This document shows positions 1,374 through 22,878 of a stretch of 25,130 nucleotides of DNA, piece by piece. Below the pieces are notes generated by a model. The model worked only from the letters and a program-made list of their open reading frames with translations, searched no databases and was not told the DNA's origin. Both the position numbers and the translations under genes were made by a program. The stretch is from the IMG/VR virus record IMGVR_UViG_3300025864_000048, positions 1 through 25,130 of that record, one strand, 5' to 3'. This DNA comes from a virus. The first letter of the stretch is position 1, and each line of letters starts with the position of its first letter.

Positions 1374-1772
1374 ATGAAAGCTAAGCTTGTAAATGAAAGA
1401 TTGGGATTTACAGAAGATGGCGATCCTGTAAAAGATATGGGCATTGGTTGGGATATCAAGAAAGAAATTGAGAAACGTTTAAAGAAAGGTGGCAATCCGA
1501 ATTACGATGGTAATACTATTACATATAGAGAATTCATGGAAGACTTCTTAGATAGATGTGCAAATCAGAATTCATCTGATATAGTTTTGGATTTGTATAG
1601 AATTATTGAGGCATTAATAGAAGAAGGAAAAACACGAGTAATAGATGATACTTTAGATGAAGATGAACATTTTATGGATTTAATGACTGACATGACGATG
1701 AAATTGTTGTCAAAATTATCTGTAAAGAAACAAATGGAATGGTATGAACCAATAATAGATGGCCAATATTAG
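1374..1772 (+). CDS. Leader-handle family protein, helical (132 aa)
   Basis: It begins MKAKLVNE followed by RLGFTEDGDPVKDMGIG, a full copy of the shared element. The predicted cut after V-N-E would leave about 124 residues. The remainder is mostly charged helix (IKKEIEKRLKK, then two longer helical segments rich in Asp/Glu and Met) with no recognised domain. Two extra residues sit between the cut site and the conserved Phe compared with most family members. The start has no Shine-Dalgarno sequence and is fixed by leader conservation. It lies 3 bases after the preceding gene. Its function is unknown; by family analogy it would be a packaged internal protein. Confidence 0.8.
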   Translation: MKAKLVNERLGFTEDGDPVKDMGIGWDIKKEIEKRLKKGGNPNYDGNTITYREFMEDFLDRCANQNSSDIVLDLYRIIEALIEEGKTRVIDDTLDEDEHFMDLMTDMTMKLLSKLSVKKQMEWYEPIIDGQY

Positions 1773-2858: not shown

Positions 2859-5000
2859 ATGAAAAACACAGACTTTATACCAATAACAGAATTTTTCGAA
2901 AATGTAAATGAGCGCTTTCATGATGAATCAGATTCGGATCCTGTTAAAGATATGGGTATTGGCACAATAAAAATAAATTTTGGTGACATAGCCAATCAAT
3001 ATTTAAAAAAGTTTAACGCACACACCAACCCTTCCAATAAAGTAGGTCATCAAATAGAAATAATACAACAATGGTGTACATGGTTAGCGACATTAAAAGG
3101 AAAAATTATTAGTGGAAACTTTAAATATAAATATTTTAAGAATATTGATGATGTATTCGAAGATTCTTTAAAAATTATTAAGATAGACAGTTATGGATTT
3201 GGCGGCCCTGGTTTAAGAATTGAATTAACTGGTAAAGATAAAGATAACGAAGTTTGTTTCATTTTAATGAATCAAACTTATTTTGTAACAGGAACAGGAT
3301 TATCTGAAAATGTTAATGAATCTGAACTAATCGATTACATGAAGCAAGTTGCTGGCATGTTTAAAGAACAAAGACAATCAGACTATTGGCAATGGAAAGT
3401 TGATAATGCAAAAGAATTGAAGCATGTAAGTACATCTGAAATTCGTGAAAAATATCCTCAAATCGATGCGTATTTAAAAAATAGTCGTCACAACGTAGTA
3501 CAGAAAGAATGCTATAAAAATGCAGGACAACTTTGTACTAACGTCGAAGGCGTATCTTATGTTGAAGGCGAAATATCATATCACGGAATTCCTATAGAAC
3601 ACGCGTGGAATAAAATTGATGGTAAGTATTTTGACATAACTAAAGATGTTTTATTCTCTAAAAATTCTGATTATGCTGAATATGTTGCGCTAATTGAACT
3701 TGATTTTAAAGAATATTCTCGCATGATATTGAAACACAAACATTGGGGCGGATTTGTTCATGAAAAATATGTTGAAGAAAAAGGAAAGAAATCAGTGTTA
3801 GAAAGTTCCAAAATGGACAATTATTATGAAAAGAATTTTGGAATAATACACGGATATAACACTCAAGTTATTAATTCTTATAATGTAGTTACTAAAATAG
3901 GAAAATACAAAACACCTATTATGCAGAATCCTAAATCACTAGAAGGATTCGATCCAGATGTAAGAGCTATTTCAGATCAAGAAGGAAATTTATATGTAGC
4001 ATATAAACATAAATATTTTAATCACGGTGATATGGCAAATGCTCTTATTAAAGCTAGTGTTATTGATACAATTGTATATAATCAAGAAGATGAAGAAAAC
4101 CTTAGGGGTGTTTATGAAGATCAGAATCATTTTTTATTATTTGATAGATTGGAAGATGAAGATATATTTGTTCCCAGCGATACTTTTGAATGGCAAGGAA
4201 CAGAAACCGACAAATTATTAAAAGCGGTGAAAGAAAAAAATCCACAATTTAAATTTGATATAAGATATTTCGAAGATGAGGATGATTACGATTTGGATGA
4301 TAACGATGATGAAATATCTGAAGGATTTCATTATCCTAAATTATTCGAATCTCCTGATCATTTTAGAATGGAAGGCTATCCTTATTCAACAGATGATTTA
4401 TCATATGCATTTGAAGTAGTTTGGGATGTAGATAATGAAAAAATACTTGATGTTTTAGTTTCTAATAAAAAGAACGCAAGTCATGGTGATGATGATGAAA
4501 CAAAAGGATTTTGGAGAGGTGGTCCCGAACATGCAATTAATAATAAAACAAAACCTTATGGCGTAAATTGGAAAAAAGCTTATCCAGGACGTTTATTTAT
4601 GGAGCCCAAAGTAATTACATTCTGGGTATACCCTAGCAATAAAGAATTAAAACAAATTGTTAACATAATTGAAGAAAAGAAAAATATTAAAATTTATGAT
4701 AATGATTGGAAGATAGAAATATATCGTGAAGGAATGCAAAATAAAGGTGAACATAATTATGAAAATAATTATCAAAGAAATTTGCCTTCTGAAATTATTC
4801 CTATCGAAAAATACATTGGGTCGAAAAAACCACCTGAAAAAGAATACTTACAACACTTAGATACAAAAACTAAACACAACGTTCCTTATGGATTTGGTTC
4901 TAAGAATCCAGCCTATATGGGTAAAAGACAATGGCAAATGGCTTCATTAACAGATGAAGGAAAAGATGAAGGCTTTTATCCAAAATTAGATTTAAAATAA
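2859..5000 (+). CDS. Leader-handle protein with Cys-His-Asp papain/transglutaminase-like domain (713 aa)
   Basis: This is the largest member of the leader family. Its leader is longer than usual, with V-N-E at residues 16-18, followed by RFHDESDSDPVKDMGIG to residue 35. Residues about 200-310 contain ECYKNA (Cys218), a glycine-containing strand, PIEHAWNKIDGKYFDIT (His248, Asp259) and WGGFVHEKY. The order Cys, then His-Ala-Trp-Asn, then Asp is typical of papain-like and transglutaminase-like folds. The activity could therefore be proteolysis, deamidation, transglutamination or amide hydrolysis; the substrate is unknown. Residues 35-150 form a separate alpha/beta domain. Residues 470-485 are highly acidic, and EGF(H)YPKL occurs at 488-495 and again at the C-terminus (704-710). 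The gene ends at a strong terminator. I infer a packaged effector enzyme. Confidence 0.8.
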   Translation: MKNTDFIPITEFFENVNERFHDESDSDPVKDMGIGTIKINFGDIANQYLKKFNAHTNPSNKVGHQIEIIQQWCTWLATLKGKIISGNFKYKYFKNIDDVFEDSLKIIKIDSYGFGGPGLRIELTGKDKDNEVCFILMNQTYFVTGTGLSENVNESELIDYMKQVAGMFKEQRQSDYWQWKVDNAKELKHVSTSEIREKYPQIDAYLKNSRHNVVQKECYKNAGQLCTNVEGVSYVEGEISYHGIPIEHAWNKIDGKYFDITKDVLFSKNSDYAEYVALIELDFKEYSRMILKHKHWGGFVHEKYVEEKGKKSVLESSKMDNYYEKNFGIIHGYNTQVINSYNVVTKIGKYKTPIMQNPKSLEGFDPDVRAISDQEGNLYVAYKHKYFNHGDMANALIKASVIDTIVYNQEDEENLRGVYEDQNHFLLFDRLEDEDIFVPSDTFEWQGTETDKLLKAVKEKNPQFKFDIRYFEDEDDYDLDDNDDEISEGFHYPKLFESPDHFRMEGYPYSTDDLSYAFEVVWDVDNEKILDVLVSNKKNASHGDDDETKGFWRGGPEHAINNKTKPYGVNWKKAYPGRLFMEPKVITFWVYPSNKELKQIVNIIEEKKNIKIYDNDWKIEIYREGMQNKGEHNYENNYQRNLPSEIIPIEKYIGSKKPPEKEYLQHLDTKTKHNVPYGFGSKNPAYMGKRQWQMASLTDEGKDEGFYPKLDLK

Positions 5001-5415: not shown

Positions 5416-5718
5416 ATGAGAGCAAAATATATAAATGAAGCTTTTGACGAAGAATCAGATCCAATTGAAGATATGGAGATTGGAAAAGTAGAATGCTCTA
5501 TTTGTCATGGATTGGGTTCATATCCTAAACACGATAGTAACTCATATGATCCTTTAACAGGAGAACATGATTGCCGATATTGTCCAATAGAAGTTGAATG
5601 TGAAACATGCGAAGGAACAGGATATGTAAGTAATAAAAAATTAAAAGAATATAAAAAACAAGAAAAGAAATTAACACAAAAATACGGGTCTTCAACATTA
5701 GATGATTTGCCTTTTTAA
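5416..5718 (+). CDS. Leader-handle protein with DnaJ-type zinc-knuckle motifs (100 aa)
   Basis: The N-terminus MRAKYINE is followed by AFDEESDPIEDMEIG, a slightly divergent handle in which MGIG is changed to MEIG. The mature part has three C-x-x-C pairs: Cys27/30 in CSICHGLG, Cys53/56 in CRYC and Cys62/65 in CETCEGTG. Two of these have the C-x-x-C-x-G-x-G form of DnaJ cysteine-rich repeats, so binding of one or two zinc ions is likely. A lysine-rich helix (NKKLKEYKKQEKKLTQKYG) follows. There is no J domain. The protein may bind unfolded protein or nucleic acid. It sits between the gp25-like and gp6-like wedge genes, an unusual place for a cargo-type gene. Confidence 0.8.
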   Translation: MRAKYINEAFDEESDPIEDMEIGKVECSICHGLGSYPKHDSNSYDPLTGEHDCRYCPIEVECETCEGTGYVSNKKLKEYKKQEKKLTQKYGSSTLDDLPF

Positions 5719-7922: not shown

Positions 7923-7923
7923 T

Positions 7924-10900
7924 ATGAACATTCAAAATTTTAAAATATTTGATAAGGCAGGAAGCCAGTTAAATTGGAATCCTGATCCTTTAATACAATT
8001 AACTTTTACAGATTCTACTGGCACCGGTGCAGAAGGATTTCTGATAACAGATCCAAGCGGGCATGCTATTTCAGCAGAAATGATAAGTGGTGGCTATTTG
8101 TATGATCATACTGATACGTCAGTAGGTTATACATATGCATTAAACAGCGTCTCTCAGGATATCACGTCTGATGTATCTATAGACACCATTGATGTTTCTA
8201 TATTTGGTTCGAATGTTTCGAATCCGAATACAAAAAGTATTAGCGGCCTGCAAATTAGAGATTTAAGTATCAATTTTGTTTATCCTTCTGTAACTTATGC
8301 CAGCGCTATTTTCTTACAGCCTGTCGCATCAGGATTAGTTGAAACAGAAACGCTTTACATTTTAGATGAATTTGCTAAAGATCAATATAGACGTCCTTAT
8401 GATCCTACTAATTCAATTTTAGTTATGGAATTTGTTGGTGACGATGATCAAATTTCTTTTTTCAATGTTAATGAAGCCACCAATGAAATAACTTGGACGG
8501 ATTCACTTGCTTTTGATACAAGCACATTACAAGCTAACGTTCCTATTCAGGTTAACATTGGATTTAAAGCCGATAATGAGGGTGTTTACGAAAGAATTCT
8601 TAGAATGTATCATTTAGTTGGCACGACACTTTATACAATTGCCGAAATTGTAGTTAATGCTGAAGCTATTGGAGAAGATGAAAGATTTCGAACACTTATA
8701 GCAAACTTTGGTTTGCCTGATCCAATCGGAATGAAACAAATTTTTAAAGAAACAGATATTAACGAAGATTTGCCAGATTGGAAAATTTTAAACTATAAAT
8801 CAAAACATATTATTCTAGAGTATGATAAAATCATGCCATTTATTGGAACTTACAAAGGTTTGATAAATGCAATCAGGTGGTTAGGCTATGATGACATCTA
8901 TATTCGTGAATGGTTCTTGAATGTTAAAGAAAACAAAAAAATATCTCTTATCATTCCGTACGAAGCAAAGGATAGAACACAAACTATTTTAATGTTTAGT
9001 CCTGAACAAAGAAAAACAATCAAGAAATTAAATCAATTATCTCTTAATTATTGTTTGACAAGAGAAACAGGACAATTAGATGTTTATGGCACACCTGAAA
9101 CAGAAAACTGTTATACATATAATCTTCAGGAAGTTTTTGTTAAACTTTTAGGATTAAAAAATTGGCTTGAAAAAAATATAATAGGAGTTAACTGTCGAAT
9201 CACAGACATAACTGGAGAAGGCATTTATTTTGAAAGAATTCAAAATCTTGTTTATGAAACTGATAATCTTGGATTCAATTATTCTATTGAGCAAACATTA
9301 ACACCTTACGGAGTCGATAATATGTCTGAATTGATTATGGGTGATGCAAGTATTAAATTGACTTTCTTGGAGTTGACAAATACAACTACAGCAAATCTTC
9401 CCATGAGATTCGGCGATATGATTCAATACGCATGGAATCCTAATGATTCTTGTGCTAATAACGCGTATTCAATTACAGATCCATTATACCTTGCTAATCC
9501 AGATGCATTTTTACTTGTGGGTTCATCATTTCAATATCCTTTCATTAATATTGCAGATATTCTTTGGAGATTATCAGTTGAAAAACCTTTAGGCGGCGTG
9601 TTAGGAACAAATGTTTGCACGAATCCTTTATTTGTTTATGAAAATGAAATACGTTTCTATAACACTCATGATGTATCTACAATATTTTTTAATGCGTCAA
9701 CAAACTTAACAGTACTTTTAGAAAAAGCATATTTAAGAGATCCGAGCATTGATGACTGGATTAATTCAATTGCTTACTCAATTTATCCTGACCCTTCTAA
9801 ATTCTATGATTACATTATGGAATCTTCTATGGGTGATAAAGTTGGCTTCCATGATTATGCAGAATTTGCTCCTGATGTATCTGCAAGATTACAATACGCT
9901 TATGATGCAAATTATCGTGTGCCTCTTTTAAGTATGCAATATTTTAAGTTTTTAGATTCAAGCGGCAATAAACAAACTTTCGGAGATAAATCATACTATC
10001 TCGATATTTTAGATGGCAAACTTTATATGAATACTGGCAATGTGCCAGATACTTTAGAAAATTTAACTCTTTATCTTAACTTCAATTATGATACAAGCTT
10101 AATTGAACAAATGATAACTGTCAATGCTGTGTATGAATCTCCACGTATGAGATTGTTCCAATTTGATCCAAGTGCATATTATTGGGCAGATCCATCAGGA
10201 AAAACTGGCGGAAACGATCCAAATGTGTATTTTTCAGATAATAGCATATACACAATGTATGTTAATCATATTGGAGATTATCATATTGAATTATTTGCAT
10301 GGGATGATTACAATACGTTAATGTATAATCCAGCCAAAGAGTTATATTCTGTATTCACTAAAGCACCTACATTATGTACAGCTATAGATGCTTGTTGCAA
10401 TAATGTTTGTTCAAATACATTTATGACTATAGATGAAGTAAGTACTTTGATATCAGAAAATAATGCGCCAATATATGACAGACTTATTCCATTACAGGAA
10501 TTATCTCTAGGAATTGATCCAAGCGGAAATGCTTTTGTTTCTGTGCCTTCAATTACATACTTCCAAGATGTGCCTGAGCCTAATTCAATCAATAGATTTA
10601 TTAACTTAACAGAAAGAGTTATCGATGTATCTGGATTGATCATCACAATCGATCCATATTCTCAAAAATTCTATTCTGGAGATGATGTTAGATTAGTCAA
10701 ATTTGATAAAGGAAAATATTCTTTGATTTCAGAATCAAGTGCTCATATTATAAATGCAACTATGGGACAACCCGCATCTGCCACACTTGATCAAATTTCT
10801 TCAACATTTATTATTGATCCGTCAAGTGATCTTTACATTTTGAATAACACATATAGAAATGTAATAAATCCTAGCAACAATGGTTTGAACTTTACGGCAG

Positions 10901-11565
10901 ATATTGTAGGATATCAGTTTGAAGTTGATCAATTAGTTGGACTTATTATTACACATAACACAAATGGATATTCATGGGGATCGTCATATAAAGTTTTAGA
11001 TGTAAGCGGAACGACACATACATTTGATTTTCCTGTGCCCGATTTCTTTGTAAACAACCCAAGCACTTACACTATTAACGCAAAACATGCATTTTCTACC
11101 TATGCTGATTTTACAATTAATACTGAAAGCGCAAATGAAGAATCAAATAATTTTCAAATCTTTTTGAAGAATTCATATTGTCAGGAATATTATCTTGATA
11201 ACACATTTGTACTCATTAATATTTTATTCGATCAAGATAAAGTTAATCAACAGTGGTATGAACCTTCAGATAATTTAATCAATAAGACCTACTTTACATA
11301 TGATCAAAGTAAACCTTTGAATGTAGACATAAGTACACTCGTAATATTACAAGCACAATACGATTCTTCAAATTATCTTCTTAATCAAAAGAATATATGG
11401 GAAATCGTAGAACACGATTCAAGTATTGTTTTAATGAAAGTATTTAATCAAAGTATTCCTTACATATTTGATACTGCTGGAGTATACGATGTAGAATGCA
11501 CAGCATACGATAGTTACGGAAATACAATTATCAAAAAATATGAGGGATTAATTCAAGTATCATGA
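7924..11565 (+). CDS. gp7/gpI-like giant baseplate wedge protein (1213 aa)
   Basis: Residues about 299-340 read YDKIMPFIGTYKGLINAIRW followed by LGYDDIYIREWF. This is the G-T-x-x-x-L-x-x-x-x-x-x-L-G plus aromatic strand pattern of tail protein I and related wedge proteins. Residues about 404-438 (LGLKNWLEKNIIGVNCRITDITGEG) resemble the second conserved part. Around these are long beta-rich regions. Residues about 775-800 (YHIELFAWDDYN) and the C-terminus, about 1177-1209 (FDTAGVYDVECTAYDSYGNT), look like PKD/Ig-like sandwich domains. A Cys-rich stretch CTAIDACCNNVCSNT lies at about 818-832. T4 gp7 is a similarly large wedge protein, so the call is by family, position and size. Its stop overlaps the next start (ATGA). 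Confidence 0.75.
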   Translation: MNIQNFKIFDKAGSQLNWNPDPLIQLTFTDSTGTGAEGFLITDPSGHAISAEMISGGYLYDHTDTSVGYTYALNSVSQDITSDVSIDTIDVSIFGSNVSNPNTKSISGLQIRDLSINFVYPSVTYASAIFLQPVASGLVETETLYILDEFAKDQYRRPYDPTNSILVMEFVGDDDQISFFNVNEATNEITWTDSLAFDTSTLQANVPIQVNIGFKADNEGVYERILRMYHLVGTTLYTIAEIVVNAEAIGEDERFRTLIANFGLPDPIGMKQIFKETDINEDLPDWKILNYKSKHIILEYDKIMPFIGTYKGLINAIRWLGYDDIYIREWFLNVKENKKISLIIPYEAKDRTQTILMFSPEQRKTIKKLNQLSLNYCLTRETGQLDVYGTPETENCYTYNLQEVFVKLLGLKNWLEKNIIGVNCRITDITGEGIYFERIQNLVYETDNLGFNYSIEQTLTPYGVDNMSELIMGDASIKLTFLELTNTTTANLPMRFGDMIQYAWNPNDSCANNAYSITDPLYLANPDAFLLVGSSFQYPFINIADILWRLSVEKPLGGVLGTNVCTNPLFVYENEIRFYNTHDVSTIFFNASTNLTVLLEKAYLRDPSIDDWINSIAYSIYPDPSKFYDYIMESSMGDKVGFHDYAEFAPDVSARLQYAYDANYRVPLLSMQYFKFLDSSGNKQTFGDKSYYLDILDGKLYMNTGNVPDTLENLTLYLNFNYDTSLIEQMITVNAVYESPRMRLFQFDPSAYYWADPSGKTGGNDPNVYFSDNSIYTMYVNHIGDYHIELFAWDDYNTLMYNPAKELYSVFTKAPTLCTAIDACCNNVCSNTFMTIDEVSTLISENNAPIYDRLIPLQELSLGIDPSGNAFVSVPSITYFQDVPEPNSINRFINLTERVIDVSGLIITIDPYSQKFYSGDDVRLVKFDKGKYSLISESSAHIINATMGQPASATLDQISSTFIIDPSSDLYILNNTYRNVINPSNNGLNFTADIVGYQFEVDQLVGLIITHNTNGYSWGSSYKVLDVSGTTHTFDFPVPDFFVNNPSTYTINAKHAFSTYADFTINTESANEESNNFQIFLKNSYCQEYYLDNTFVLINILFDQDKVNQQWYEPSDNLINKTYFTYDQSKPLNVDISTLVILQAQYDSSNYLLNQKNIWEIVEHDSSIVLMKVFNQSIPYIFDTAGVYDVECTAYDSYGNTIIKKYEGLIQVS

Positions 11566-11936: not shown

Positions 11937-12554
11937 TTATGAGTAACTTTCTGCAAAGGCTGCATCTGCACCTATAATTTTTAAACCACATATATGAATT
12001 TTATTATTATGAAGAAATAGATGAACATAATTGTCTGTCATGTTTGGCATTCCATAACAAATAAAATTTCCTTGTATATCAACAGGCATCCCTTCAAGAG
12101 AATGTAATAGAGGATTTTTAGAACAATTAAAATCACCTCTAATTGATTTAGTACAGCCTTTTAAAGATGTTAATTTGTTTTCAAATAACATTAAGTTAAT
12201 TATGTCTCCAGTTGGTAATTCTTTAATAGATGTTAATTCATTATGTCCTAAGTAAATATTTCCAGACATAGTTTTTGGAAATCCGTGGAGATTTTTTAAT
12301 CCACTTTCATAAAAATTTAAATCTCCTTTAAGATGATTTATTTGAATAAATTCTGGCAATTCATCTAAAGATTTTTTGAAAAAATTTATACTTGAATTAA
12401 TATCAACTGTTTGATCAGAATTAATTGTATATTTTTCAATATCATATTTTTCCATCCATTTACGAATTAACATAGGTTTTCCTATTCCCATGTCATGTAT
12501 AGAATCGGACTCATCTGAGAATTTCTCGTTTAAATATTCTCTAACTAATTTCAT
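11937..12554 (-). CDS. Leader-handle protein with leucine-rich repeats (205 aa)
   Basis: The leader MKLVREYLNE is followed by KFSDESDSIHDMGIG, where the usual D-P is D-S. Residues about 60-167 form degenerate leucine-rich repeats of the short, phage-type pattern: LPEFIQINHLKGDLNFYESG, then LKNLHGFPKTMSGNIYLGHN, ELTSIKELP, KLTSLKGCTKSIRGDFNCS and LHSLEGMPVDIQGNFICYG. Such repeats normally make a curved binding surface, so a host-protein partner is plausible. The tail (residues 168-205) is not repetitive. This is the last gene of the - strand block and ends directly against the + strand stop. It follows the 153-residue gene by 2 bases. Confidence 0.85.
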   Translation of the reverse strand: MKLVREYLNEKFSDESDSIHDMGIGKPMLIRKWMEKYDIEKYTINSDQTVDINSSINFFKKSLDELPEFIQINHLKGDLNFYESGLKNLHGFPKTMSGNIYLGHNELTSIKELPTGDIINLMLFENKLTSLKGCTKSIRGDFNCSKNPLLHSLEGMPVDIQGNFICYGMPNMTDNYVHLFLHNNKIHICGLKIIGADAAFAESYS

Positions 12555-12556
12555 TT

Positions 12557-13018
12557 TTAAAACTTTAATGTTACGTGATAAGGCCTTATTAAATAAATTG
12601 CAAATTCGCTTTCCATAAGACTAATGCTATTATAATACAAACCTATTACATGAAAAAATTGTAAAGCATGAGGGTGAAATAATGATTTCAAACCAGCGTT
12701 CTTTATCTTTACTACTTTAATTTTTTTCGTAACCCATCCTTTATTTACTTGCCACATTCTTCCTTCAATGAATCTTCCAATAATAAATGGCTCAATTTCT
12801 TTTTTAAATTCTTCAAAACCTTTTCTCATTCCTGTTAAATTCATTTGATCTTTTAACGGATCATTGTAGTACGGATTGTATTTTCTATGATACTCATCTA
12901 AAAAGGGTTTAAAATTATCCATGAGTACAATGTCATATTCAGCACCAATTCCCATGTCTTTTACAGGATCAGATTCTTCTTCGAATTTCTCGTTTATATG
13001 TTCTCTAACTAATTTCAT
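12557..13018 (-). CDS. Leader-handle protein of unknown function (153 aa)
   Basis: The leader MKLVREHINE and handle KFEEESDPVKDMGIG are close to the family consensus. The body has a helical first half (NFKPFLDEYHRKYNPYYNDP, then FEEFKKEIEPFIIGRFIEG) and a beta-rich second half ending in YLIRPYHVTLKF. The layout is loosely like residues 35-140 of the 713-residue protein at 2859-5000 (a Y-x-x-K-x-N helix, then I-x-G-x-F and a K-I-x-K-I strand), which may be distant homology; this is weak. The start overlaps the stop of the upstream gene (ATGA). No catalytic motif is seen. Confidence 0.8.
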   Translation of the reverse strand: MKLVREHINEKFEEESDPVKDMGIGAEYDIVLMDNFKPFLDEYHRKYNPYYNDPLKDQMNLTGMRKGFEEFKKEIEPFIIGRFIEGRMWQVNKGWVTKKIKVVKIKNAGLKSLFHPHALQFFHVIGLYYNSISLMESEFAIYLIRPYHVTLKF

Positions 13019-13782
13019 TTAAATGAATTTATTGTTTTTCCTATAAATTTTTGGAAATATTTTTTAGTATTTTTCTTATAAATACATTTAACTCCCTGAT
13101 AAGAATCCGGTTCATCAAATTCAAAACCTGTGATTGTCTTAAATAGATGATCTAATCCAACTCCTTTAATGAGTTTTCTACAGTACGTAACTTTATTAAA
13201 GATAATTCCTTTTCTGCCAACAACCCGATCACCATACATATTTAAAAAATACGAATTTTCACGAATAACAATAGATTCAATAATAGTTCCTTGAACATTT
13301 TTATTTACGAATGAATATTCATTTTTATCTAAAAATTTTTGATCTAATTCAAAAATCTTTTTAGAAGAATCTTTAATAAGTCCAGGTATTCCTATTCCTA
13401 TATCTTTTACAGGATCAGAATCTTCAGTAAATGATTCTTGAAGTTTATCGTACATTATATGTTGTTTTAAATCATGACCATTGATGCCAGCTTTATATCC
13501 ATTAACCCTTAAATATGTGTTGCAATATTGAAATATTCTTGCAAAAAATGGGTCTTTAATTATTCCAATTCCATTAAGTCTAGGTTCTTCATCAGTATTA
13601 ATAATACTCTTAATATTATCACTATGAATTATATGAGGAATTAAATATTGACATACAAATTTATATAAATCTTCATCTGATTCAAAATCCTGACGTACGT
13701 TTAACATACCAATACTCATATCTTTTATGGGATCGGATTGATTGCTGAATTTCTCGTTAATATGTTCTCTAACTATCTTCAC
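13015..13782 (-). CDS. Two-module leader-handle protein, likely polyprotein (255 aa)
   Basis: It starts with GTG. The codon immediately upstream is an in-frame TAA, and the translated leader MKIVREHINE matches its neighbours, so this start is well fixed. The first handle is KFSNQSDPIKDMSIG. A second element occurs at residues 114-131: L-Q-E, then SFTEDSDPVKDIGIG. Cutting after both Glu residues would release modules of about 106 and 139 residues. Module 1 is helical and may be distantly related to the duplicated modules in the gene at 21859-22878. Module 2 is beta-rich with a basic C-terminus. No enzyme motif is recognised in either module. Confidence 0.83.
   Translation of the reverse strand: MKIVREHINEKFSNQSDPIKDMSIGMLNVRQDFESDEDLYKFVCQYLIPHIIHSDNIKSIINTDEEPRLNGIGIIKDPFFARIFQYCNTYLRVNGYKAGINGHDLKQHIMYDKLQESFTEDSDPVKDIGIGIPGLIKDSSKKIFELDQKFLDKNEYSFVNKNVQGTIIESIVIRENSYFLNMYGDRVVGRKGIIFNKVTYCRKLIKGVGLDHLFKTITGFEFDEPDSYQGVKCIYKKNTKKYFQKFIGKTINSFK
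13390..13443 (-). repeat. Internal cleavage-handle copy (LQE + handle)
   Basis: This encodes residues 114-131 of the 255-residue protein: L-Q-E followed by SFTEDSDPVKDIGIG. The hydrophobic-x-E triplet keeps the same spacing to the conserved Phe as in N-terminal copies, but the basic leader before it is absent. Confidence 0.85.
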
Positions 13783-14593
13783 TTACTTCTTGCATTGCAT
13801 CCTTTTCATATTTGCTATTCAATTTTCCATAATCCACAAATGTTACATTAAATTCCGGAAATTCTCTTCTATATTCTCCGTTTTTAATTATATGTTGAAC
13901 CGCAGGAACAAGTTTATATCGTACAATACTTGGCATTGTTTTTTTATAAGCAACAAAATAACATTGATGAAATTCAGGATTGATTAAAATTGAATCATAG
14001 CCCAATTTTGTAATAAGTTTTTGAACATAGTTATTTAATCCAAGTAACTGAGCTTTTGATTTTTCTCTGAGAACAATATTGCTAAACCAAAAATCTATAT
14101 GATCATCATTAATGGCAATCGTATAGATTGCCTGTTGTTTATCAGCAGCTCCAAATTTGTCAAATAATTCTTTATACATGTGTACTGCACCAATACCCAT
14201 ATCTTGTATAGCATCGTTATCTTCACTAAATTTCTCGTATATTTGTTTTCGATTAAATGGTTCGAAATACTCTTTAAAAAAATCGAAATTCCATCCCCAG
14301 ATATCTGATCGTGAAGGCGAATTATTTCTTAGAAAAGTTTTATCCGGGTAATATCTGTATTGAATAATTATGTCATCATTTTTCTTATAAGTTACTTGAT
14401 CAATTTCAATAATTCCCCCCTTTGAATAAAAACGAGGAGGCTCGCTATTTTCAATATCTAAACGTTTTTTAAATCTTACAAGATCACCTTGTTTAAGAGT
14501 TTTATATATTTGATACATGCCAATGCCCATATCTTGTACAGCGTCAGATTTATCTGTGAATTTTTCGTTTATATGTTCTCTGACTATTTTCAC
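13769..14593 (-). CDS. Two-module leader-handle protein, likely polyprotein (274 aa)
   Basis: It starts with GTG at 14593. The start is chosen because the leader MKIVREHINE exactly matches the next gene's. The first handle is KFTDKSDAVQDMGIG. The second element, at residues 118-135, is I-Y-E then KFSEDNDAIQDMGIG. Both copies have D-A in place of D-P and a Q-D-M-G-I-G ending, so they resemble each other more than other copies do. Module 1 has GDLVRFKKRLD and a strand-rich middle, like a small beta-barrel. Module 2 is mixed alpha/beta. The start overlaps the upstream stop by one base, and the gene's last 14 bases overlap the next gene, indicating coupled translation. Confidence 0.83.
   Translation of the reverse strand: MKIVREHINEKFTDKSDAVQDMGIGMYQIYKTLKQGDLVRFKKRLDIENSEPPRFYSKGGIIEIDQVTYKKNDDIIIQYRYYPDKTFLRNNSPSRSDIWGWNFDFFKEYFEPFNRKQIYEKFSEDNDAIQDMGIGAVHMYKELFDKFGAADKQQAIYTIAINDDHIDFWFSNIVLREKSKAQLLGLNNYVQKLITKLGYDSILINPEFHQCYFVAYKKTMPSIVRYKLVPAVQHIIKNGEYRREFPEFNVTFVDYGKLNSKYEKDAMQEVSEDS
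14189..14242 (-). repeat. Internal cleavage-handle copy (IYE + handle)
   Basis: This encodes residues 118-135 of the 274-residue protein: I-Y-E followed by KFSEDNDAIQDMGIG. It has the same triplet-to-Phe spacing as the N-terminal copies. The sequence upstream (FNRKQ) is unrelated to the standard leader. Confidence 0.85.
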
Positions 14594-15123
14594 TATTTTA
14601 CTTCTTTTTTGATATTTGTATCAATTCTTTGAATTATATCAGGCATTTGATCTTTTCTATATCTTCCCATTAAATTCTGTTTAACATCGCATTCTTTAGC
14701 ATTTCCAGCTTTCATATCTTGTTTTAATTCACGTAATTTAAAATTATCTTCATATTTATCCGTAGAGAATAGCGGAAGATTATCTCCACGTTTAAGTTTA
14801 CGAGCATATCCTACCCATTCTTTTCTTAATGAATAAATGTTTGGAGCTTGATGAGGCATATAAGTTATTGTGTATTTGTGTTTGTAAACATATACAGCTG
14901 CTCCGCCTTCATGGTTAGTTAATACTTCAAAATATGGTTTAATATCAACAAACATAATTGGGGATTCTTGTTTACGAATAGGCACCATCTGAAACTCATA
15001 GCCATGTGCATCTGCATATTTCTGCAAATATCCACCTGCGATACTGAGAGGAGTTCCAATTCCCATACTATGTATCGGGTCGTCTTCTTCACTAAATTTT
15101 TCAAATACAAATTGGGCTTTCAT
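14593..15123 (-). CDS. Leader-handle protein of unknown function (176 aa)
   Basis: A TTG codon lies in frame one codon upstream (15124-15126), but the ATG at 15121-15123 is preferred. It gives MKAQFVFE, matching the first six residues of the protein at 1804 and the general MKA/MRA leader type. The handle is KFSEEDDPIHSMGIG. The body is basic, with PLSIAGGYLQKYADAHGYEF, several beta strands including GGAAVYVYKHKYTITYMP, and a Lys-rich C-terminal third (LRKEWVGYARKLKRGDNLP). It might bind nucleic acid, but no family is recognised. It is transcribed after the 1090-residue gene, with a 22-base gap between them. Confidence 0.8.
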   Translation of the reverse strand: MKAQFVFEKFSEEDDPIHSMGIGTPLSIAGGYLQKYADAHGYEFQMVPIRKQESPIMFVDIKPYFEVLTNHEGGAAVYVYKHKYTITYMPHQAPNIYSLRKEWVGYARKLKRGDNLPLFSTDKYEDNFKLRELKQDMKAGNAKECDVKQNLMGRYRKDQMPDIIQRIDTNIKKEVK

Positions 15124-15145
15124 CAATGATTTATTTTATTTATCT

Positions 15146-18100: not shown

Positions 18101-18418
18101 AGAAATAAAATCTCCTGAACTCAAATCGTTAGGTATCATAGGTATTAAACAAACTTTCAATAAATCATTTAAATCATCATCATCAACATTAGTAGAAGTG
18201 AAAGCAAGTATTGATTTAATTTGTGAACTTCCATTGATGAATTGTTTTATTTCATCTTTACTTTTATGAGATTGAGCAAATTTATTAAGCAAAGCTAATG
18301 ACGTAACGCTTAAAGCAATCAAAACGTCAGGCTTACTAAAAAATTGTTTCTGACGTTTGAATTCCTGTGTAAATTGTTTATTGAATTTATCGATTAATGC
18401 TTTTATAAACTTATTCAT
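15146..18418 (-). CDS. Large virion protein with membrane segment and coiled coil (1090 aa)
   Basis: The N-terminal 230 residues are helical with several moderately hydrophobic segments (about 31-46, 133-150 and 205-221). Residues about 338-358 (FEGKALFSPVTGYVDKISVN) resemble a biotinyl/lipoyl-like hammerhead strand pair, followed by a long helix, as in HlyD-type adaptors. Residues about 728-800 include a Trp/Pro-rich stretch and one strong hydrophobic segment (YGFLVIGLTICGIWFFPWTLF) that could span a membrane. Residues about 810-925 are lysine-rich and predicted coiled coil. It has no leader or handle and no visible peptidase or lysozyme motif. Its size and location among tail genes suggest a virion protein that may contact the host membrane during DNA entry; a tape-measure role is an alternative. 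Confidence 0.75.
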   Translation of the reverse strand: MNKFIKALIDKFNKQFTQEFKRQKQFFSKPDVLIALSVTSLALLNKFAQSHKSKDEIKQFINGSSQIKSILAFTSTNVDDDDLNDLLKVCLIPMIPNDLSSGDFISLATSVNDINSKINYNKLNKLILKFENNTVMILTFSYLFAHIITITKDLFATEFPSPHRTKYNQKLIRNTYGLLKQQIKNVSKIEAKQINDLLSGLNTIDDILIAIALTSTIYIANRKILQKQSHATLQTIASENVCIDLTPAFDVSVNKIPFQISLNCPVITDDVPVPHEPIELKLQNPISCEVNQNLEVVIDATQSPDLATYAIVRNISKSIFVPTVVPDAFLTQDKGIATFEGKALFSPVTGYVDKISVNEVVLRDISDQDNFLQTQVDLLNADYQRLNYINAFLKDYYIESLYPVLLNVSVTDDASTHATKNLAIGVDVLFGLTKKSFANIKANYEKQIKQIAGKDNIEKNAKNETLDVIKTELEDAAKLFYNNEQLMATKSKNDAKVVLARPDEFILFDYYTLDIGSILHDLVNPTPVEIQYTNIIDDIIRKRFVIDSYGKEKLTKKLNDLLQVIIDKSTIISWFDQAQAIYKTSKKMDDVKTWLTGYANKNKKLNVDDKIIQVNRAIFLFNLFIDADQLVQKYTILKKESKPLLETIKEGNTISTFFGDIWKERDSLPIEITNIENLIDNLNTFSIYSITDYKGAQARLYILSDEPVCKSLETDPRLNPKSKYGYGDIKYWLRYCSLATLASVTNPATGWSTGWLIPKPIRLPVVYIPFKSISTKYGFLVIGLTICGIWFFPWTLFVNMTSNYHTPLLDPTISLKNEIDVLKKSISINIKNLKKTFIKKALDDNNAKLDVVKDNLIKSQKQLKDIKAAKPKKYNDDASKNKQYTQQLATWTEKNLVFNEAIFTLKTKKWKLEKISAVLSNALKSGSSTKDVDPALTQSEKQINKQLDNLSAMTDNIDKTLSPLPISMTPNTANFGITLKNTKPIIKIADQLDNNVNESIVSSITKKFKLQNAPMMSTAYKNTLSTTVINYSAYKKTLSAGMNTMIAKDPFPKYELLSPTNIPYVSFLYRDFVTAGAKTFGIPGQLPLPI

Positions 18419-18983
18419 CTAATTTAATTTTGATTCTATTCATTTTAGTTGAATTTCCTGTGGTATATGAATAAACTGCTGTATTAAATTTAACTTTAAA
18501 TGGACGTACCTTTTGATGATATTTCTTTCCTTTACCCGAAACAACATAAGAAATTGTTATGTGTGGGTGAAAACCCGGGAAATTTTGTGTATTAGGAAGA
18601 TTCGCAAGTAAAGCTTCATAATACTTTTTTAACTCAGGAATAACAGGCACGTCATACTTAACTACATCATATTCATCATTACTAAATCCAGATATCGTAT
18701 CTATCGTAACGGTAATTGGTTTGAAAGTTGCTATAAACTTTTTAATATCTTGAGGATCAGTTTCATCCAAATGAATTCCAAATAAAAGAGTGCAATGTGG
18801 CGTATGTTCCAATCCGTAATCTTTGAGTTCATCATCATAAATATCTTCTTTATCAATTATTGCTAATTTTTTATTCCAATCAGGTATTTGAGTGTACAGC
18901 ATTACACACCCATACTCAGTTTTCTTTGATTGTGTTTTCTTCGCTTCCATAAGCCAATTTTTAAAAGCTATAAATTTATGCAT
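18411..18983 (-). CDS. 2H phosphoesterase-like protein with leader (190 aa)
   Basis: Two H-x-T motifs mark the 2H phosphoesterase fold: HTPHCTLLFG (His63, Thr65) and FHPHITISYV (His141, Thr143). They lie about 78 residues apart, in the expected two-lobe arrangement. The family includes LigT/ThpR-type enzymes, viral 2'-5' oligoadenylate phosphodiesterases and the T4 anti-CBASS protein Acb1. The likely reaction is hydrolysis of a 2',3'-cyclic, 2'-5' or 3'-5' linked nucleotide; the substrate is not set by sequence. The N-terminus MHKFIAFKNWLME has a hydrophobic-x-E site (L11-M12-E13) similar to the neighbouring metalloprotease gene, but no handle. It overlaps both neighbours by 8 bases. Confidence 0.85.
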   Translation of the reverse strand: MHKFIAFKNWLMEAKKTQSKKTEYGCVMLYTQIPDWNKKLAIIDKEDIYDDELKDYGLEHTPHCTLLFGIHLDETDPQDIKKFIATFKPITVTIDTISGFSNDEYDVVKYDVPVIPELKKYYEALLANLPNTQNFPGFHPHITISYVVSGKGKKYHQKVRPFKVKFNTAVYSYTTGNSTKMNRIKIKLDE

Positions 18984-19389
18984 TTTTCCAGTATTTATTT
19001 AAAATATTATCGTACTCCTTAGATTTGTCAAAACCTGGAACATCTTTAAAACTTTTATATCCCTTTTTCTTTAAATGTTTAAATTGATTAGTATATGCTT
19101 TAACTTCAGTACTATTGTACGGGTATTCCTTTCCATCATCTTTCCATCCTTTTGTATGATGTAATTTGTAATGCATCATTTCGTGTCTCATCCATCCTGT
19201 AGGATCCTTTTTATAATCGTAATCATCACGAATTCTTACAACATCATGATCAGCATCAAATTCAGTAGGGTCTTTTTTTTCTTTTTGCCAATCTGCTTTT
19301 TTAACAATTTGTATTGGCACATTAAAGCCATCTACATTAAAAGATTGTAATTCTTCAGATAACCACATTTTAAATGCTATAAAATTCAT
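18976..19389 (-). CDS. HExxH zinc metalloprotease-like protein with leader (137 aa)
   Basis: Residues 64-77 read TGWMRHEMMHYKLH. H69-E70-x-x-H73 is the zincin active-site pattern on a helix, and Glu95 in NSTEVKAY is a candidate third zinc ligand in the E-x-x-A/x-Y style. The preceding segment DADHDVVRIRDDYDY looks like the edge strand of a minimal metalloprotease. The N-terminus MNFIAFKMWLSE shares I-A-F-K-x-W-L-x-E with the next gene and ends in a hydrophobic-x-E site at residues 10-12; there is no handle. The gene is coupled to the 2H phosphoesterase gene by an 8-base overlap. Proteolysis of a host protein is plausible; the target is unknown. Confidence 0.82.
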   Translation of the reverse strand: MNFIAFKMWLSEELQSFNVDGFNVPIQIVKKADWQKEKKDPTEFDADHDVVRIRDDYDYKKDPTGWMRHEMMHYKLHHTKGWKDDGKEYPYNSTEVKAYTNQFKHLKKKGYKSFKDVPGFDKSKEYDNILNKYWKNA

Positions 19390-19398
19390 CTTATATTT

Positions 19399-19689
19399 TT
19401 ATTTTAAAGGTTTATATCGTTCTACAATTCTCCAATGTACTGAATCTTTAAAGATATCTTTGTTATCTTTGTTGAGATCTTCATGTTCATCTACAAAATC
19501 CCACAAAGCTTTTTTACTATTAGAGTGATATGCTATGAGAAAATTATCATACGTTAAATAATAACCTGATATATTTTTATTATACATATCTATGATTTTC
19601 TTTTTATTCGTGATAAATCCGCCAATGCCCATATCTTTTATGGGATCACTTTGTTCTGTGAATTTTTCGTTAACTAATTTAGCTCTCAT
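19399..19689 (-). CDS. Small leader-handle protein (96 aa)
   Basis: The leader MRAKLVNE is followed by KFTEQSDPIKDMGIG. A predicted cut after V-N-E leaves 88 residues. The body has a basic helix (TNKKKIIDMYNKNI), an aromatic strand (YYLTYDNFLIAYHS), an acidic segment (EHEDLNKDNKDIFKD) and a final strand VHWRIVERYK, consistent with one small alpha/beta domain. No family is recognised. The start coincides with the last base of the upstream gene's stop. It is the fourth of four small cargo-type genes read in a row after the gp5-like spike gene, just before the metalloprotease gene. Confidence 0.8.
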   Translation of the reverse strand: MRAKLVNEKFTEQSDPIKDMGIGGFITNKKKIIDMYNKNISGYYLTYDNFLIAYHSNSKKALWDFVDEHEDLNKDNKDIFKDSVHWRIVERYKPLK

Positions 19690-20141
19690 TATTTATCATA
19701 TTTTATTTGACTTTTTAATAAAGTTTTTATTTTTCTATTTTCGGGATTATCATCAGATAAATTATCCAATTCAGACTTATCAGTAAATGATTTGCTTACA
19801 ATTGCGCCATGTTCTAATAAACATTTAACCATGAGATAATCATCATTGAAAAAAGCATATCTTAACGGAATTTCAGCAGTGTCAGTATTATTTAAAATAT
19901 GAATATTTGCACCACATTCAAGTAAGTGAGATACAAACTTAACGTTATGCATTTCTATAGAAATAAGAAATAAATTATCAATACTATTATAATTATCTGT
20001 GATTGCTAATCCTACATTTTGCGAATCATCATCCATAAATTTTTTGCATTCACGTTTAATTAAACCCTTTATGCCTATGCCCATATCTTTTATTGGGTTT
20101 CCGCCTTCTGTAAATTTCTCATTTACGAATTTTGCTCTCAT
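19689..20141 (-). CDS. Leader-handle protein with ankyrin-like repeats (150 aa)
   Basis: The leader MRAKFVNE is followed by KFTEGGNPIKDMGIG, with N-P in place of D-P. Residues about 55-88 (LFLISIEMHNVKFVSHLLEC then GANIHILNN) and about 90-122 (PLRYAFFNDDYLMVKCLLEH then GAIVSKS) match the ankyrin helix-turn-helix pattern with the L-L-x-x-G-A loop. Two repeats are clear, and flanking helices could cap them. Ankyrin repeats mediate protein binding and have no catalytic role by themselves. The C-terminal tail is acidic then lysine-rich. It is spaced 1 base from the gene upstream and overlaps the next by 1 base. Confidence 0.83.
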   Translation of the reverse strand: MRAKFVNEKFTEGGNPIKDMGIGIKGLIKRECKKFMDDDSQNVGLAITDNYNSIDNLFLISIEMHNVKFVSHLLECGANIHILNNTDTAEIPLRYAFFNDDYLMVKCLLEHGAIVSKSFTDKSELDNLSDDNPENRKIKTLLKSQIKYDK

Positions 20142-20142
20142 A

Positions 20143-20586
20143 TTAATTATCGTATTTTATTAAAATGTATTCCCAATCTCCACCACTGTCTTCACTACTC
20201 CATTCTTCCCAACCTTTATTAAACAATGGCTTAATTTTTTTATCATATACATAAGTTAATTGATCTCTCCAATCACCATAATATTTGGCTGGAACTTTTT
20301 CATCATCAGGATTAAATCCAATTACTTTAATTCGTTTCTTTCCTAAAAGGAGGAAAAGCCAAAATAATTCTTCTTTTTGATCAAAATCTAAATAAATATC
20401 AAATGCGGCTCCATATTCATCATTTGCTAAGTCAGTAATAAAGTCTTCAATAACATCTTCTTCTTTATGCCCACGCATTTTTTCAATTTCGCGTTGAACA
20501 TATTTTTTACTAAACGCGCCTATGCCCATTTGTTTTACAGGGTCTCCGCCTTCGGTAAATTTCTCGTTTATAAATTTGGCTCTCAT
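20143..20586 (-). CDS. Leader-handle protein of unknown function (147 aa)
   Basis: The leader MRAKFINE is followed by KFTEGGDPVKQMGIG. The body is acidic with a helical first part (KKYVQREIEKMRGHKEEDVI), a segment FDIYLDFDQKEELFWLFLLL and a strand KKRIKVIGFN. The C-terminus is Trp-rich (GWEEWSSEDSGGDWEYILIK). It could be one alpha/beta domain with a charged binding surface. The acidic Trp-rich tail is reminiscent of DNA-mimic or protein-binding segments, but that is only an impression. The leader-handle sequence differs from the next downstream gene's at only a few positions, suggesting recent duplication or exchange of this segment. Confidence 0.8.
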   Translation of the reverse strand: MRAKFINEKFTEGGDPVKQMGIGAFSKKYVQREIEKMRGHKEEDVIEDFITDLANDEYGAAFDIYLDFDQKEELFWLFLLLGKKRIKVIGFNPDDEKVPAKYYGDWRDQLTYVYDKKIKPLFNKGWEEWSSEDSGGDWEYILIKYDN

Positions 20587-20587
20587 T

Positions 20588-21073
20588 TTAATGAAATTTC
20601 ATTATGATTGGCAATAATTGTTGTTTTGAATCGAATTCAATTACTGCATAAATATCTCCAATGTATTGCATCACATCATCATTGTCTTCAGGAACTTCAC
20701 CTTCATAAGTGTAATGCATTGTAATTAACTTTCCAGCTTTTGTTTTATATCCTTTTATTATTGAGTATTCGTTACGATGTCCAGATGTTTTTATGCTTTT
20801 ATTAAATATTTCCGTTCCTTCATCAATAGCTTTATTTATATCATCAATATTATCAGGAACACGCTTATATATATCACCCAAATAATAAATTTTCTCTATA
20901 GGTAAATTGAAAAAATCAGTTAAAATTTTTACTGTTTGATAATCTAAGGCATCAAGAACTCGAGTAATTTCTAATTTTGTTACTTGCTTTCTGAATTCTT
21001 CTATTCCTATTCCCATATCATGAACAGGATCGGAATCAGCATTAAATTTCTCATTTATAAATCGTGCTCTCAT
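20588..21073 (-). CDS. Leader-handle protein of unknown function (161 aa)
   Basis: The leader MRARFINE is followed by KFNADSDPVHDMGIG. Residues about 25-90 are helical (EEFRKQVTKLEITRVLDALD, ILTDFFNLPIEKIYYLGDIY) and about 100-161 are beta-rich, ending IYAVIEFDSKQQLLPIIMKF. No family motif is seen. The start codon overlaps the last base of the gp5-like spike gene's stop, so this cargo-type gene is directly coupled to a structural gene. The arrangement implies late expression together with virion proteins. Confidence 0.8.
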   Translation of the reverse strand: MRARFINEKFNADSDPVHDMGIGIEEFRKQVTKLEITRVLDALDYQTVKILTDFFNLPIEKIYYLGDIYKRVPDNIDDINKAIDEGTEIFNKSIKTSGHRNEYSIIKGYKTKAGKLITMHYTYEGEVPEDNDDVMQYIGDIYAVIEFDSKQQLLPIIMKFH

Positions 21074-21855
21074 TATACACTTATCATTACGTTTGTTGAT
21101 GTTGCTGATTGTTTAGCAGCTTCTACTAATCCCACATTTACTCCCGGAGTGGCGGGCATTTTAGCATCTAATGCAGTCGCCATTGTTGAAAGTAAAGCCC
21201 AGAATGGCTCAGCCATTAAAGCATGATTGTAAGGTCCAGGACCGATTTTTGTAGTTTGTGATCCGTTTACTTTCACCTCATCTGCTGTTACTTCGACTTT
21301 ACTTGCTGCCGAAATATTTACCTCATTCTTAGTCGATATATTTATCGTATCTGTGTCCATCTGAACAATTGAATCTCCGTTTGGAGTTGATAACGTAACT
21401 AAAGCGTCAGGAGTTATTTGAAAGAAAGAACTCTTGTAAAAAATCTGAAAACCACTTTTTCTTTGATAAATAACTGTAAGCTCTTCGCCCGGATCATATA
21501 ATAGAACATGAGTCCCTTGATAATCATCTTTAATTCTTTTTATTAAATCTGTATCGATATTTTGAATTGTCGTATATTCAGGAGCGTAAAGATCTCCATT
21601 ATTAAATTGAACTCTAACAAATTGCCCAACTTTAGGAACAGATAAAGAACCTGCGCCATTACCCGCAAATATTGTTGAGTTGATTGGAGTAACCCAAGGT
21701 AAGTGTTCGTCTTTTATTCCATCCATTAATCCAAGTGTACGAATCTGAGCTCTTCCAGAAAACGTAGGATCATTGGTGTTAATAACAATGCCAACCCAAT
21801 CGTTGTCGTGAAGGTCATTTTGAATAAAGTCTATATCTACTGAGTATTGTGGCAT
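21073..21855 (-). CDS. gp5-like baseplate spike protein, OB fold plus beta-helix (260 aa)
   Basis: Residues about 15-110 match the OB-fold of T4 gp5/VgrG-type spike proteins: WVGIVINTNDPTFSGRAQIR, then LPWVTPIN, then SVPKVGQFVRVQFNNGD and LYAPEY. Residues about 130-200 form short alternating strands (TLSTPNGDSIVQMDTDTINI, then STKNEVNISAASKVEVTADE), typical of the trimeric beta-prism needle. The C-terminal region (PFWALLSTMATALDAKM onward) is an amphipathic helix. No lysozyme domain is present, unlike T4 gp5. It has no leader or handle. The protein should form the central puncturing spike of the baseplate. Confidence 0.87.
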   Translation of the reverse strand: MPQYSVDIDFIQNDLHDNDWVGIVINTNDPTFSGRAQIRTLGLMDGIKDEHLPWVTPINSTIFAGNGAGSLSVPKVGQFVRVQFNNGDLYAPEYTTIQNIDTDLIKRIKDDYQGTHVLLYDPGEELTVIYQRKSGFQIFYKSSFFQITPDALVTLSTPNGDSIVQMDTDTINISTKNEVNISAASKVEVTADEVKVNGSQTTKIGPGPYNHALMAEPFWALLSTMATALDAKMPATPGVNVGLVEAAKQSATSTNVMISV

Positions 21856-21858
21856 AAT

Positions 21859-22878
21859 TTATTTATTTTTAGGGTACCCTGCCATTATTAATATTTGATA
21901 CAATTCTCTTAGTGTTTGACTTTTAAAAGATGTGTCGTTAATAATGTATTTATGCAAATAATCTGTAATTAATTTTAAATATTCTGAATTAAACGCTAAT
22001 CTTACTCCTGTTTTTGGATCTACATAACCTATGGGATAAATAACGTCATCAGGAATTTTATCCATTTTCATTATATCTGACAAATTAGTATATATATGTT
22101 TTGCCGCAACATTAGCATGATTATATGTTTTCTTTACAAATACTCCAATACCCATATCTCGTATTGGATCTCCACCTTCAGTAAAAGCTTCATTAACATC
22201 TTTGGGATATCCTTTTTTCCGTAGTAATCTAAGTACTTCACTTAAAATTTTTGACCAAAATGAAAGCTCTCTTCTGCCATCTGGTGTTTTAATATAATTC
22301 ATCATAAATTCTTTTAAAATTGGCCAATATTTTTGATTTATGTTTTGCAATAATAATGGATCATCATGTTTTTTAATAATATTATTTGGAATTTTATCCA
22401 CTTTAAGAATAGTGCATAAGTGTTTAATTAAAAATTTAGCGGCCTGATTTGCTGTTTCATAATTTGCAGATCGATATATGCCGATTCCTATATCTCTAAT
22501 AGGATCAGAATCTTCTGAAAATTTCTCGTTTACTTTCTTTTTACGTTCGTATTTATTAACTTTTTTTCCTATAGCCAATTTAACTTTTTTAATTAAGCGA
22601 TTTTGATCAATATCGTATGACGTTATATATGAACCTGAATCTATAGGATAAATATCTGTTACGGCTCGCCAGTCATTATTTATACCGTCTTTATAAAGTA
22701 TGATATACATATTTCGATAAAACAGAATTTTATGCTCACGAGTAGTAATAATTTCATTAATAGTTGCATTAGAAAAAATCCACTTTCGTTTTTTAAGATC
22801 CGCGATCGCGCTAATACCCATATCTTTTACAGGATCTGATTCTTCTTTAAATTTTTCGTTAATGAATTTAGCTCTCAT
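21859..22878 (-). CDS. Three-module leader-handle polyprotein candidate (339 aa)
   Basis: The N-terminal leader MRAKFINE is followed by a handle ending DMGIS. Two more full elements follow: V-N-E at residues 116-118 with KFSEDSDPIRDIGIG, and V-N-E at 228-230 with AFTEGGDPIRDMGIG. Cutting after each Glu would give modules of about 110, 112 and 109 residues. Modules 2 and 3 are clearly related: both have an (A)NxAAK helix, a D-K-I-P turn, a Y-rich helix and end in a helix followed by GYPK. Module 1 is unrelated and beta-rich. Equal module length, preserved cut triplets and tandem homology strongly suggest a processed polyprotein. It lies between the spike gene and the repeat-bearing tail gene. 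Confidence 0.85.
   Translation of the reverse strand: MRAKFINEKFKEESDPVKDMGISAIADLKKRKWIFSNATINEIITTREHKILFYRNMYIILYKDGINNDWRAVTDIYPIDSGSYITSYDIDQNRLIKKVKLAIGKKVNKYERKKKVNEKFSEDSDPIRDIGIGIYRSANYETANQAAKFLIKHLCTILKVDKIPNNIIKKHDDPLLLQNINQKYWPILKEFMMNYIKTPDGRRELSFWSKILSEVLRLLRKKGYPKDVNEAFTEGGDPIRDMGIGVFVKKTYNHANVAAKHIYTNLSDIMKMDKIPDDVIYPIGYVDPKTGVRLAFNSEYLKLITDYLHKYIINDTSFKSQTLRELYQILIMAGYPKNK
21865..22479 (-). repeat. Tandem duplicated module pair in the 339-residue protein
   Basis: Residues 134-226 and 246-338 are divergent copies. They share N-x-A-A-K, a following helix with I-x-K-x-D-K-I-P, a central Y-x-x-I/L segment with M/L-x-x-Y-I, and a closing L-x-E-x-x-x-x-L then G-Y-P-K. Divergence is high enough that the duplication is old or under diversifying selection. 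Confidence 0.75.
22144..22197 (-). repeat. Internal cleavage-handle copy 2 of the 339-residue protein
   Basis: This encodes residues 228-245: V-N-E followed by AFTEGGDPIRDMGIG. It follows the GYPK end of module 2, and module 3 also ends at GYPK, so the element marks the boundary between duplicated modules. Confidence 0.88.
22480..22533 (-). repeat. Internal cleavage-handle copy 1 of the 339-residue protein
   Basis: This encodes residues 116-133: V-N-E followed by KFSEDSDPIRDIGIG. A basic run KYERKKK precedes it, which loosely mimics the positive charge of N-terminal leaders. Confidence 0.88.

Follow-up and report, generated by a model that had tools for sequence, protein, structure and literature searches.

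A three-module phage ORF with repeated internal handles as a probable precursor of head-cargo proteins

The ORF at 21859-22878 of the window, a 25,130-nucleotide stretch of viral DNA (IMG/VR record IMGVR_UViG_3300025864_000048), probably encodes three head-cargo proteins as one precursor, cut by an S77 protease at a repeated sequence termed here the handle. The phage is probably a T4-like jumbo phage and a relative of the Lak megaphages. Each handle combines a hydrophobic-x-E triplet with a second block, KFxEESDPIxDMGIG, and N-terminal copies also carry a leader.

Architecture of the three-module ORF

The ORF is encoded on the minus strand, starts with ATG, and specifies 339 aa. Its N-terminal handle (MRAKFINEKFKEESDPVKDMGIS) contains E8 and its two internal handles contain E118 and E230, splitting the chain into segments of 115, 112, and 112 aa. 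A sequence-only reading had described repeats at residues 116-133 and 228-245 that divide the protein into three nearly equal parts of about 110 residues; both copies and the proportions were recovered. The homology that it proposed between modules 2 and 3 also holds (30.6% identity over 98 aa, E=2e-12), with both modules ending C-terminally in GYPK. Neither module is significantly similar to module 1. Handle copy 2 has KKK directly before it, and an extra INE without a handle lies inside module 1 (residues 40-42). The ORF and its borders comprise the following features:

21073..21855, minus strand: baseplate hub/tail lysozyme (gp5)-like gene, downstream border of the cargo slot (phrog_430, 6.6e-17; synteny)
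21859..22878, minus strand: three-module cargo polyprotein ORF (predicted), 339 aa (ORF call; 100% identical copy on another IMG/VR contig)
21862..22143, minus strand: module 3, residues 246-339, family C1; 53% identity to a standalone ORF in the syntenic place (L075:3161-3520)
22144..22197, minus strand: internal handle 3, residues 228-245, VNEAFTEGGDPIRDMGIG; predicted cut after Glu230; disordered in AlphaFold, at residues 228-236 in the full-length model
22198..22479, minus strand: module 2, residues 134-227, family C1
22480..22533, minus strand: internal handle 2, residues 116-133, VNEKFSEDSDPIRDIGIG; predicted cut after Glu118; residues 80-124 with pLDDT <50
22534..22809, minus strand: module 1, residues 24-115, partly beta, family C21; 43% identity to the first module of L051:5747-6418
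22810..22878, minus strand: handle 1, residues 1-23, leader MRAKF + INE + KFKEESDPVKDMGIS; predicted cut after Glu8; residues 1-14 with low pLDDT
22878..25064, minus strand: conserved 728-aa protein, upstream border of the cargo slot (synteny)

An assembly error or one-off fusion is contradicted by the identical ORF on the second contig and by the 57 non-redundant multi-handle ORFs described below. Pfam and PHROG searches of the ORF returned nothing significant and no peptidase family was recognised in it. Searches of INPHARED by tblastn with the ORF or the handle revealed no known phage relatives, the 23-aa handle being an insensitive query.

AlphaFold predictions place the handles in disordered stretches. 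When module 3 was modelled with its handle, residues 1-19 almost all had pLDDT <50 and the remainder mostly >90. In the full-length model (pTM 0.37), low confidence coincides with the leader and both internal cut sites (residues 1-14, 80-124, and 228-236), and no compact fold spans the handles. Of the three independent domains that had been anticipated, modules 2 and 3 are mostly confident; module 1 is moderate, and its model is uncertain because its part of the shallow alignment (8 rows) is essentially a single sequence. A Foldseek search of module 3 gave no match below E 0.7, which is not evidence of a new fold, and all matches in a VIA fold search (Z at most 3.3, including a BEN domain, 8htx, Z 3.0) were within noise.

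Handles and cassettes across related phages

A handle profile search of viral sequences matched 71 loci, several of them in one 405-kb phage. Across all loci there were 342 matches in 224 ORFs (296 once near copies were removed), compared with 1 match in three rounds of shuffled proteins at the same threshold, and the handles are thus not due to chance. At least two handles occur in 57/206 non-redundant handle ORFs, with a maximum of 8 and a median spacing of 122 aa; in single-handle ORFs, a median of 138 aa separates the handle from the end. The 405-kb genome alone encodes 84 distinct handles, 23 of them internal. Many of the ORFs with 2-8 modules combine modules from different clusters, and 16/30 multi-member clusters mix internal and N-terminal modules. 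Family C1, to which modules 2 and 3 belong, has 45 modules (13 standalone, 12 first, 12 middle, 8 last). These distributions support internal handles as markers of module boundaries and modules as independent cassettes. Family C2 is found only as a first or middle module (0/15 last or standalone), a bias not predicted if module products were fully independent. Members of family C3 occur only as last or single modules. Among 86 single-handle ORFs compared with Pfam and PHROG names, only DUF6267 was a strong match. The same domain is present in a 731-aa ORF (L034:219-2414), where a nucleotidyltransferase-like start (GSYKPMHAAHVN) is followed by an internal handle at residue ~211 and then DUF6267.

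Synteny shows that modules behave as exchangeable cassettes, entering and leaving slots that lie between structural genes. The slot between the 728-aa gene and the gp5-like gene is empty in most relatives (gap of 40 nt or less). It is occupied by one ankyrin module in L123/L141, by two-module polyproteins in L046, L060, and L118/L142, the last accompanied by a separate single-module ORF, and by three modules in the window. In L075, it holds a single 119-aa ORF composed of leader, INE, handle, and a module 53% identical to module 3. Comparison of L075 with the window indicates that an N-terminal handle in one phage is internal in its counterpart, with the leader lost and the triplet kept. A further difference was observed between two near-identical phages (L050:4264-4728, L060:2416-3348), where L050 is without one ankyrin module and the deletion begins inside an internal handle.

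To avoid circularity, handle matches were chosen only on positions F to final G, and the residues upstream were then read. The hydrophobic-x-E triplet is kept in 104/106 internal and 169/178 N-terminal copies; the two internal exceptions are indel-shifted and most others likewise keep a displaced triplet. Upstream residues carry about 1.7-3.9 bits of information in N-terminal copies versus a nearly random 0.2-0.9 bits in internal ones, in which the N-terminal leader is near background level. The earlier observation that the triplet is retained without a basic leader is therefore borne out across the family, except that copy 2 of the ORF itself follows KKK. Internal copies also have subsite preferences of their own: L/V/M/F outnumber I at P3 (72 vs 32, against 36 vs 133 in N-terminal copies; p=4e-15), Asn outnumbers Tyr/Phe at P2 (76 vs 5, against 104 vs 54; p=5e-7), and Ser is frequent at P4 (30/104 vs 4/169; p=2e-10). 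Leaders are of several types, including the T4-CTS-like MxxFxSYKxW, and all finish in phi-x-E.

The stronger proposal, that this triplet is functional by itself, did not gain support. Depletion of bare [ILV]NE inside modules was looked for as support and not found, the motif being neither depleted nor enriched (36 vs 35.9 expected), so either the triplet alone is probably insufficient or folded modules hide it. In internal copies, the triplet is always accompanied by the second block, which is at least as conserved and would sit on the mature side of any cut; its conservation is not explained by cleavage alone. Small indels occur between the two elements, suggesting two separable functions. 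At conserved handle residues, the same codon is used at frequencies of 0.62 vs 0.64 and 0.55 vs 0.57 expected. Such random synonymous choice means that the constraint acts on the protein and that the copies did not arise recently. The repeated tags are genuine and subject to selection.

Proposed processing and its alternatives

The 25 kb window fragment is without head genes, and its protease and major capsid protein (MCP) were read from relatives. The handle-bearing 405-kb phage encodes an S77 protease joined to a region resembling a scaffold (306658-309003) and, as MCP, a protein of gp23 type (PF03420, PF07068), both of which match T4 structures by sequence. Its protease-scaffold ORF contains 11 [ILVMF]NE vs 1.4 expected, the most among 349 non-handle ORFs, and those of ten relatives contain 9-12 vs ~1.4 expected. 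The commonest form in the scaffold is L/V-N-E, which is also favoured in internal handles. One conserved VNE sits within the protease domain itself, implying that the triplet is not sufficient and that some copies of it may stay uncut. In ten MCPs, ALNE followed by A/S is invariant at the presumed cleavage site, the expected end of the propeptide, and four divergent MCPs have SINE followed by N; the same alignment column holds LYE in the MCP of LR756500 and LNE in that of Lak-A2, two huge-phage relatives. The P1' Lys of handles is unlike the A/S/N of these sites. In one small ORF (MKAKSINE followed by LMGAGASPGMGN...), a handle-type leader runs directly into an MCP N-arm homologue, which ties the leader to the head. 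An MCP N-arm-like segment is also fused behind a handle module in the 405-kb phage. Such junctions are found standalone in one phage and fused behind handle modules in another (L036:3318-3713 and L021:1255-2412, with leaders MKAKSINE / MKARTVSE).

By analogy with T4, the N-terminal leader would act as a capsid-targeting sequence (CTS) that brings the entire chain into the prohead core. The phage S77 prohead protease would then cut after the Glu of [ILV]-N-E at residues 8, 118, and 230, which would take off the leader and free three ~12 kDa proteins, each predicted to start with KF or AF and a second block ending DPIxDMGIG. Internal handles retain only the cut site and second block, plausibly because a chain already in the prohead needs no further leader. 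At the mature N-terminus, the second block probably serves a purpose of its own; retention, protease docking, and ejection are speculative examples. Generalizing, we lean towards the view that Lak-related jumbo phages make dedicated cargo polyproteins, in which up to eight bipartite-handle cassettes share one leader and are cut by the prohead maturation protease. The bipartite handle would then combine a protease site with a conserved 15-residue retention or ejection signal, and a single N-terminal signal would deliver several effectors.

A less likely account, though one to be taken seriously, is that the handle is a docking tag for the scaffold, shell, or another partner, with internal copies raising the avidity of cargo that remains uncut or loses at most its leader. 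This would suit a second block conserved at least as well as the triplet on the mature side of the cut, the presence of bare triplets inside modules, and position-biased families such as C2, which suggest that some modules work joined. It fits poorly with the occurrence of [ILV]NE in both scaffold and MCP site, with indels that reveal two separable elements, and with the convergence of several leader types on phi-x-E, as a cut site would require.

Two further explanations were weighed. Neighbouring handle ORFs follow one another head-to-tail, overlapping or separated by very little, which makes fusion easy, and the syntenic single-module gene shows that fusion-like gain has happened; nevertheless, internal handles are improbable as passive, functionless remnants of recent fusions between adjacent ORFs, given that the triplet is kept in 104/106 copies despite leader loss, that internal copies have distinct subsite preferences, and that synonymous positions are randomised. 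Least probable is a DNA element, either a recombination site or an internal translation start yielding separate proteins without proteolysis. Cassettes clearly shuffle, and the module loss in L050 relative to L060 is a deletion starting in a handle, but the random codon choice at conserved residues disfavours a DNA-level recombination site. Internal initiation is likewise disfavoured, as start codons are not enriched at P3 (8/104), in-frame ATGs upstream occur at 17% vs a 20% background, and Shine-Dalgarno-like sites are few.

Relation to known systems and neighbouring genes

The handle system probably operates as the CTS/gp21 system of T4 does and has its origin in the same head machinery, judging from homologous MCPs and proteases. 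T4 gp21 cuts after L/I-X-E and, in the CTS of IPIII, targeting (residues 4, 7) is separate from processing (residues 8, 10); Asp in place of the Glu at the corresponding CTS position blocks processing in T4 (PMC9026906). Leader loss with triplet retention in internal copies is the pattern predicted from this division. As in T4 IPI/IPII/IPIII and Alt (CTS, gp21, peptidase S77), a short leader ends in hydrophobic-x-E at about residues 8-13, as found in 169/178 N-terminal copies. Also alike are the pairing of an S77 protease with a gp23-type MCP within the same phages (here in a handle-bearing relative) and a small, diverse cargo that is gained and lost. Handle phages depart from T4 in that their cargo genes number in the dozens (one 405-kb phage has 84 handles), the cut site is followed by a conserved second block, and modules are strung in tandem with internal handles between them. 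For T4, the available part of PMC9026906 describes no internal CTS repeat.

Polyvalent proteins of phages and conjugative elements join 2-15 disparate domains per polypeptide, are predicted to enter with DNA and be processed, and often have embedded zincin or assemblin-like peptidases (Iyer et al. 2017, PMC5512222). Handle ORFs resemble them in carrying several unrelated domains per chain (2-8 modules). The ORF at 21859-22878 differs in having no recognised embedded peptidase and the same short handle at every boundary, which implies processing in trans. In SPN3US, the prohead protease (gp245) acts on numerous head and ejection proteins, where it cuts C-terminal to Glu after a short motif; in the available part of the source (PMC10052503), these cuts remove N-terminal propeptides, and a chain divided into several mature cargo proteins is not described.

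Among phage records, Lak megaphages are the nearest with MCPs of this type, the MCP being 48% identical. Several Lak-A2 ORFs of the MNKLIKRLIESLFDDIDD... type have a similar basic leader, phi-x-E, then F and an acidic stretch. In contrast to handle phages, their second block is an acid-rich LFDDxDD instead of DPIxDMGIG, and no tandem internal copies were seen in the ~125 kb examined. In two Lak-A2 (Prevotella phage) loci, L112 and L113, at least five ORFs share the leader MNKxIKxLLESLFDDxDD, with phi-x-E then F and acidic residues; this is possibly the Lak version of the handle.

A literature search for the handle motif letters found nothing, and no description of repeated internal targeting or cleavage handles was found in the partly covered literature. 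The best reading is that the T4-type capsid-cargo system is known and its extension to tandem-module polyproteins with repeated internal handles is new, with cleavage as the inferred step. As many unrelated, unannotated modules carry the handle, with 84 copies in one genome, it offers a sequence tag by which the otherwise invisible candidate virion cargo of uncultured huge phages can be catalogued. The handle system also predicts that many small proteins can enter a phage head by way of polyproteins. Should cleavage be confirmed, this would amount to a T4-type counterpart of the polyprotein strategy of RNA viruses, one that lacks an embedded protease, and several proteins could be loaded with one leader by using the handle as a modular tag.

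The window derives from a contractile-tail phage setting, with baseplate wedge and hub proteins (PHROGs), and contains ~17 handle copies, four of them internal. Besides the three-module ORF, two ORFs have an internal handle, and most other handle ORFs are single-module:

1374..1772, plus strand: single-module handle ORF (VNERLGFTEDGDPVKDMGIG); a spacer separates VNE from the second block
2859..5000, plus strand: 713-aa ORF with a handle at residue ~18 (FFENVNERFHDESDSDPVKDMGIG)
5416..5718, plus strand: single-module handle ORF (MRAKYINEAFDEESDPIEDMEIG), CxxC-rich, with a sub-threshold DnaJ zinc-finger match
11937..13018, minus strand: two single-module handle ORFs (11937-12554, 12557-13018)
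13015-13782, minus strand: two-module handle ORF, second handle from residue ~114
13769-14593, minus strand: two-module handle ORF, second handle from residue ~118
14593..15126, minus strand: single-module handle ORF (MKAQFVFEKFSEEDDPIHSMGIG)
19399..21073, minus strand: four tandem single-module handle ORFs (19399-19689, 19689-20141, 20143-20586, 20588-21073)

Leaders also occur on ORFs outside the handle set. In L010, three ORFs beside handle ORFs (7313-7570, 7905-8228, 10831-11097) have an MKAKLxxE leader but no second block, and a 155-aa cupin-like ORF (10349-10816) has the leader KKVREELYEE. In the window, a small ORF at 18976-19389 (minus strand) has the leader MNFIAFKMWLSEE and an HEMMH zincin-like motif, with an M76 match that is sub-threshold only. 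It overlaps the gene at 18411-18983 (minus strand) for a 2H phosphoesterase (2'-5' RNA ligase/LigT superfamily) with a weak match to the anti-CBASS protein Acb1. The phosphoesterase has a T4-CTS-like leader (MHKFIAFKNWLMEA) with the second block absent, and is a candidate packaged counter-defence enzyme.
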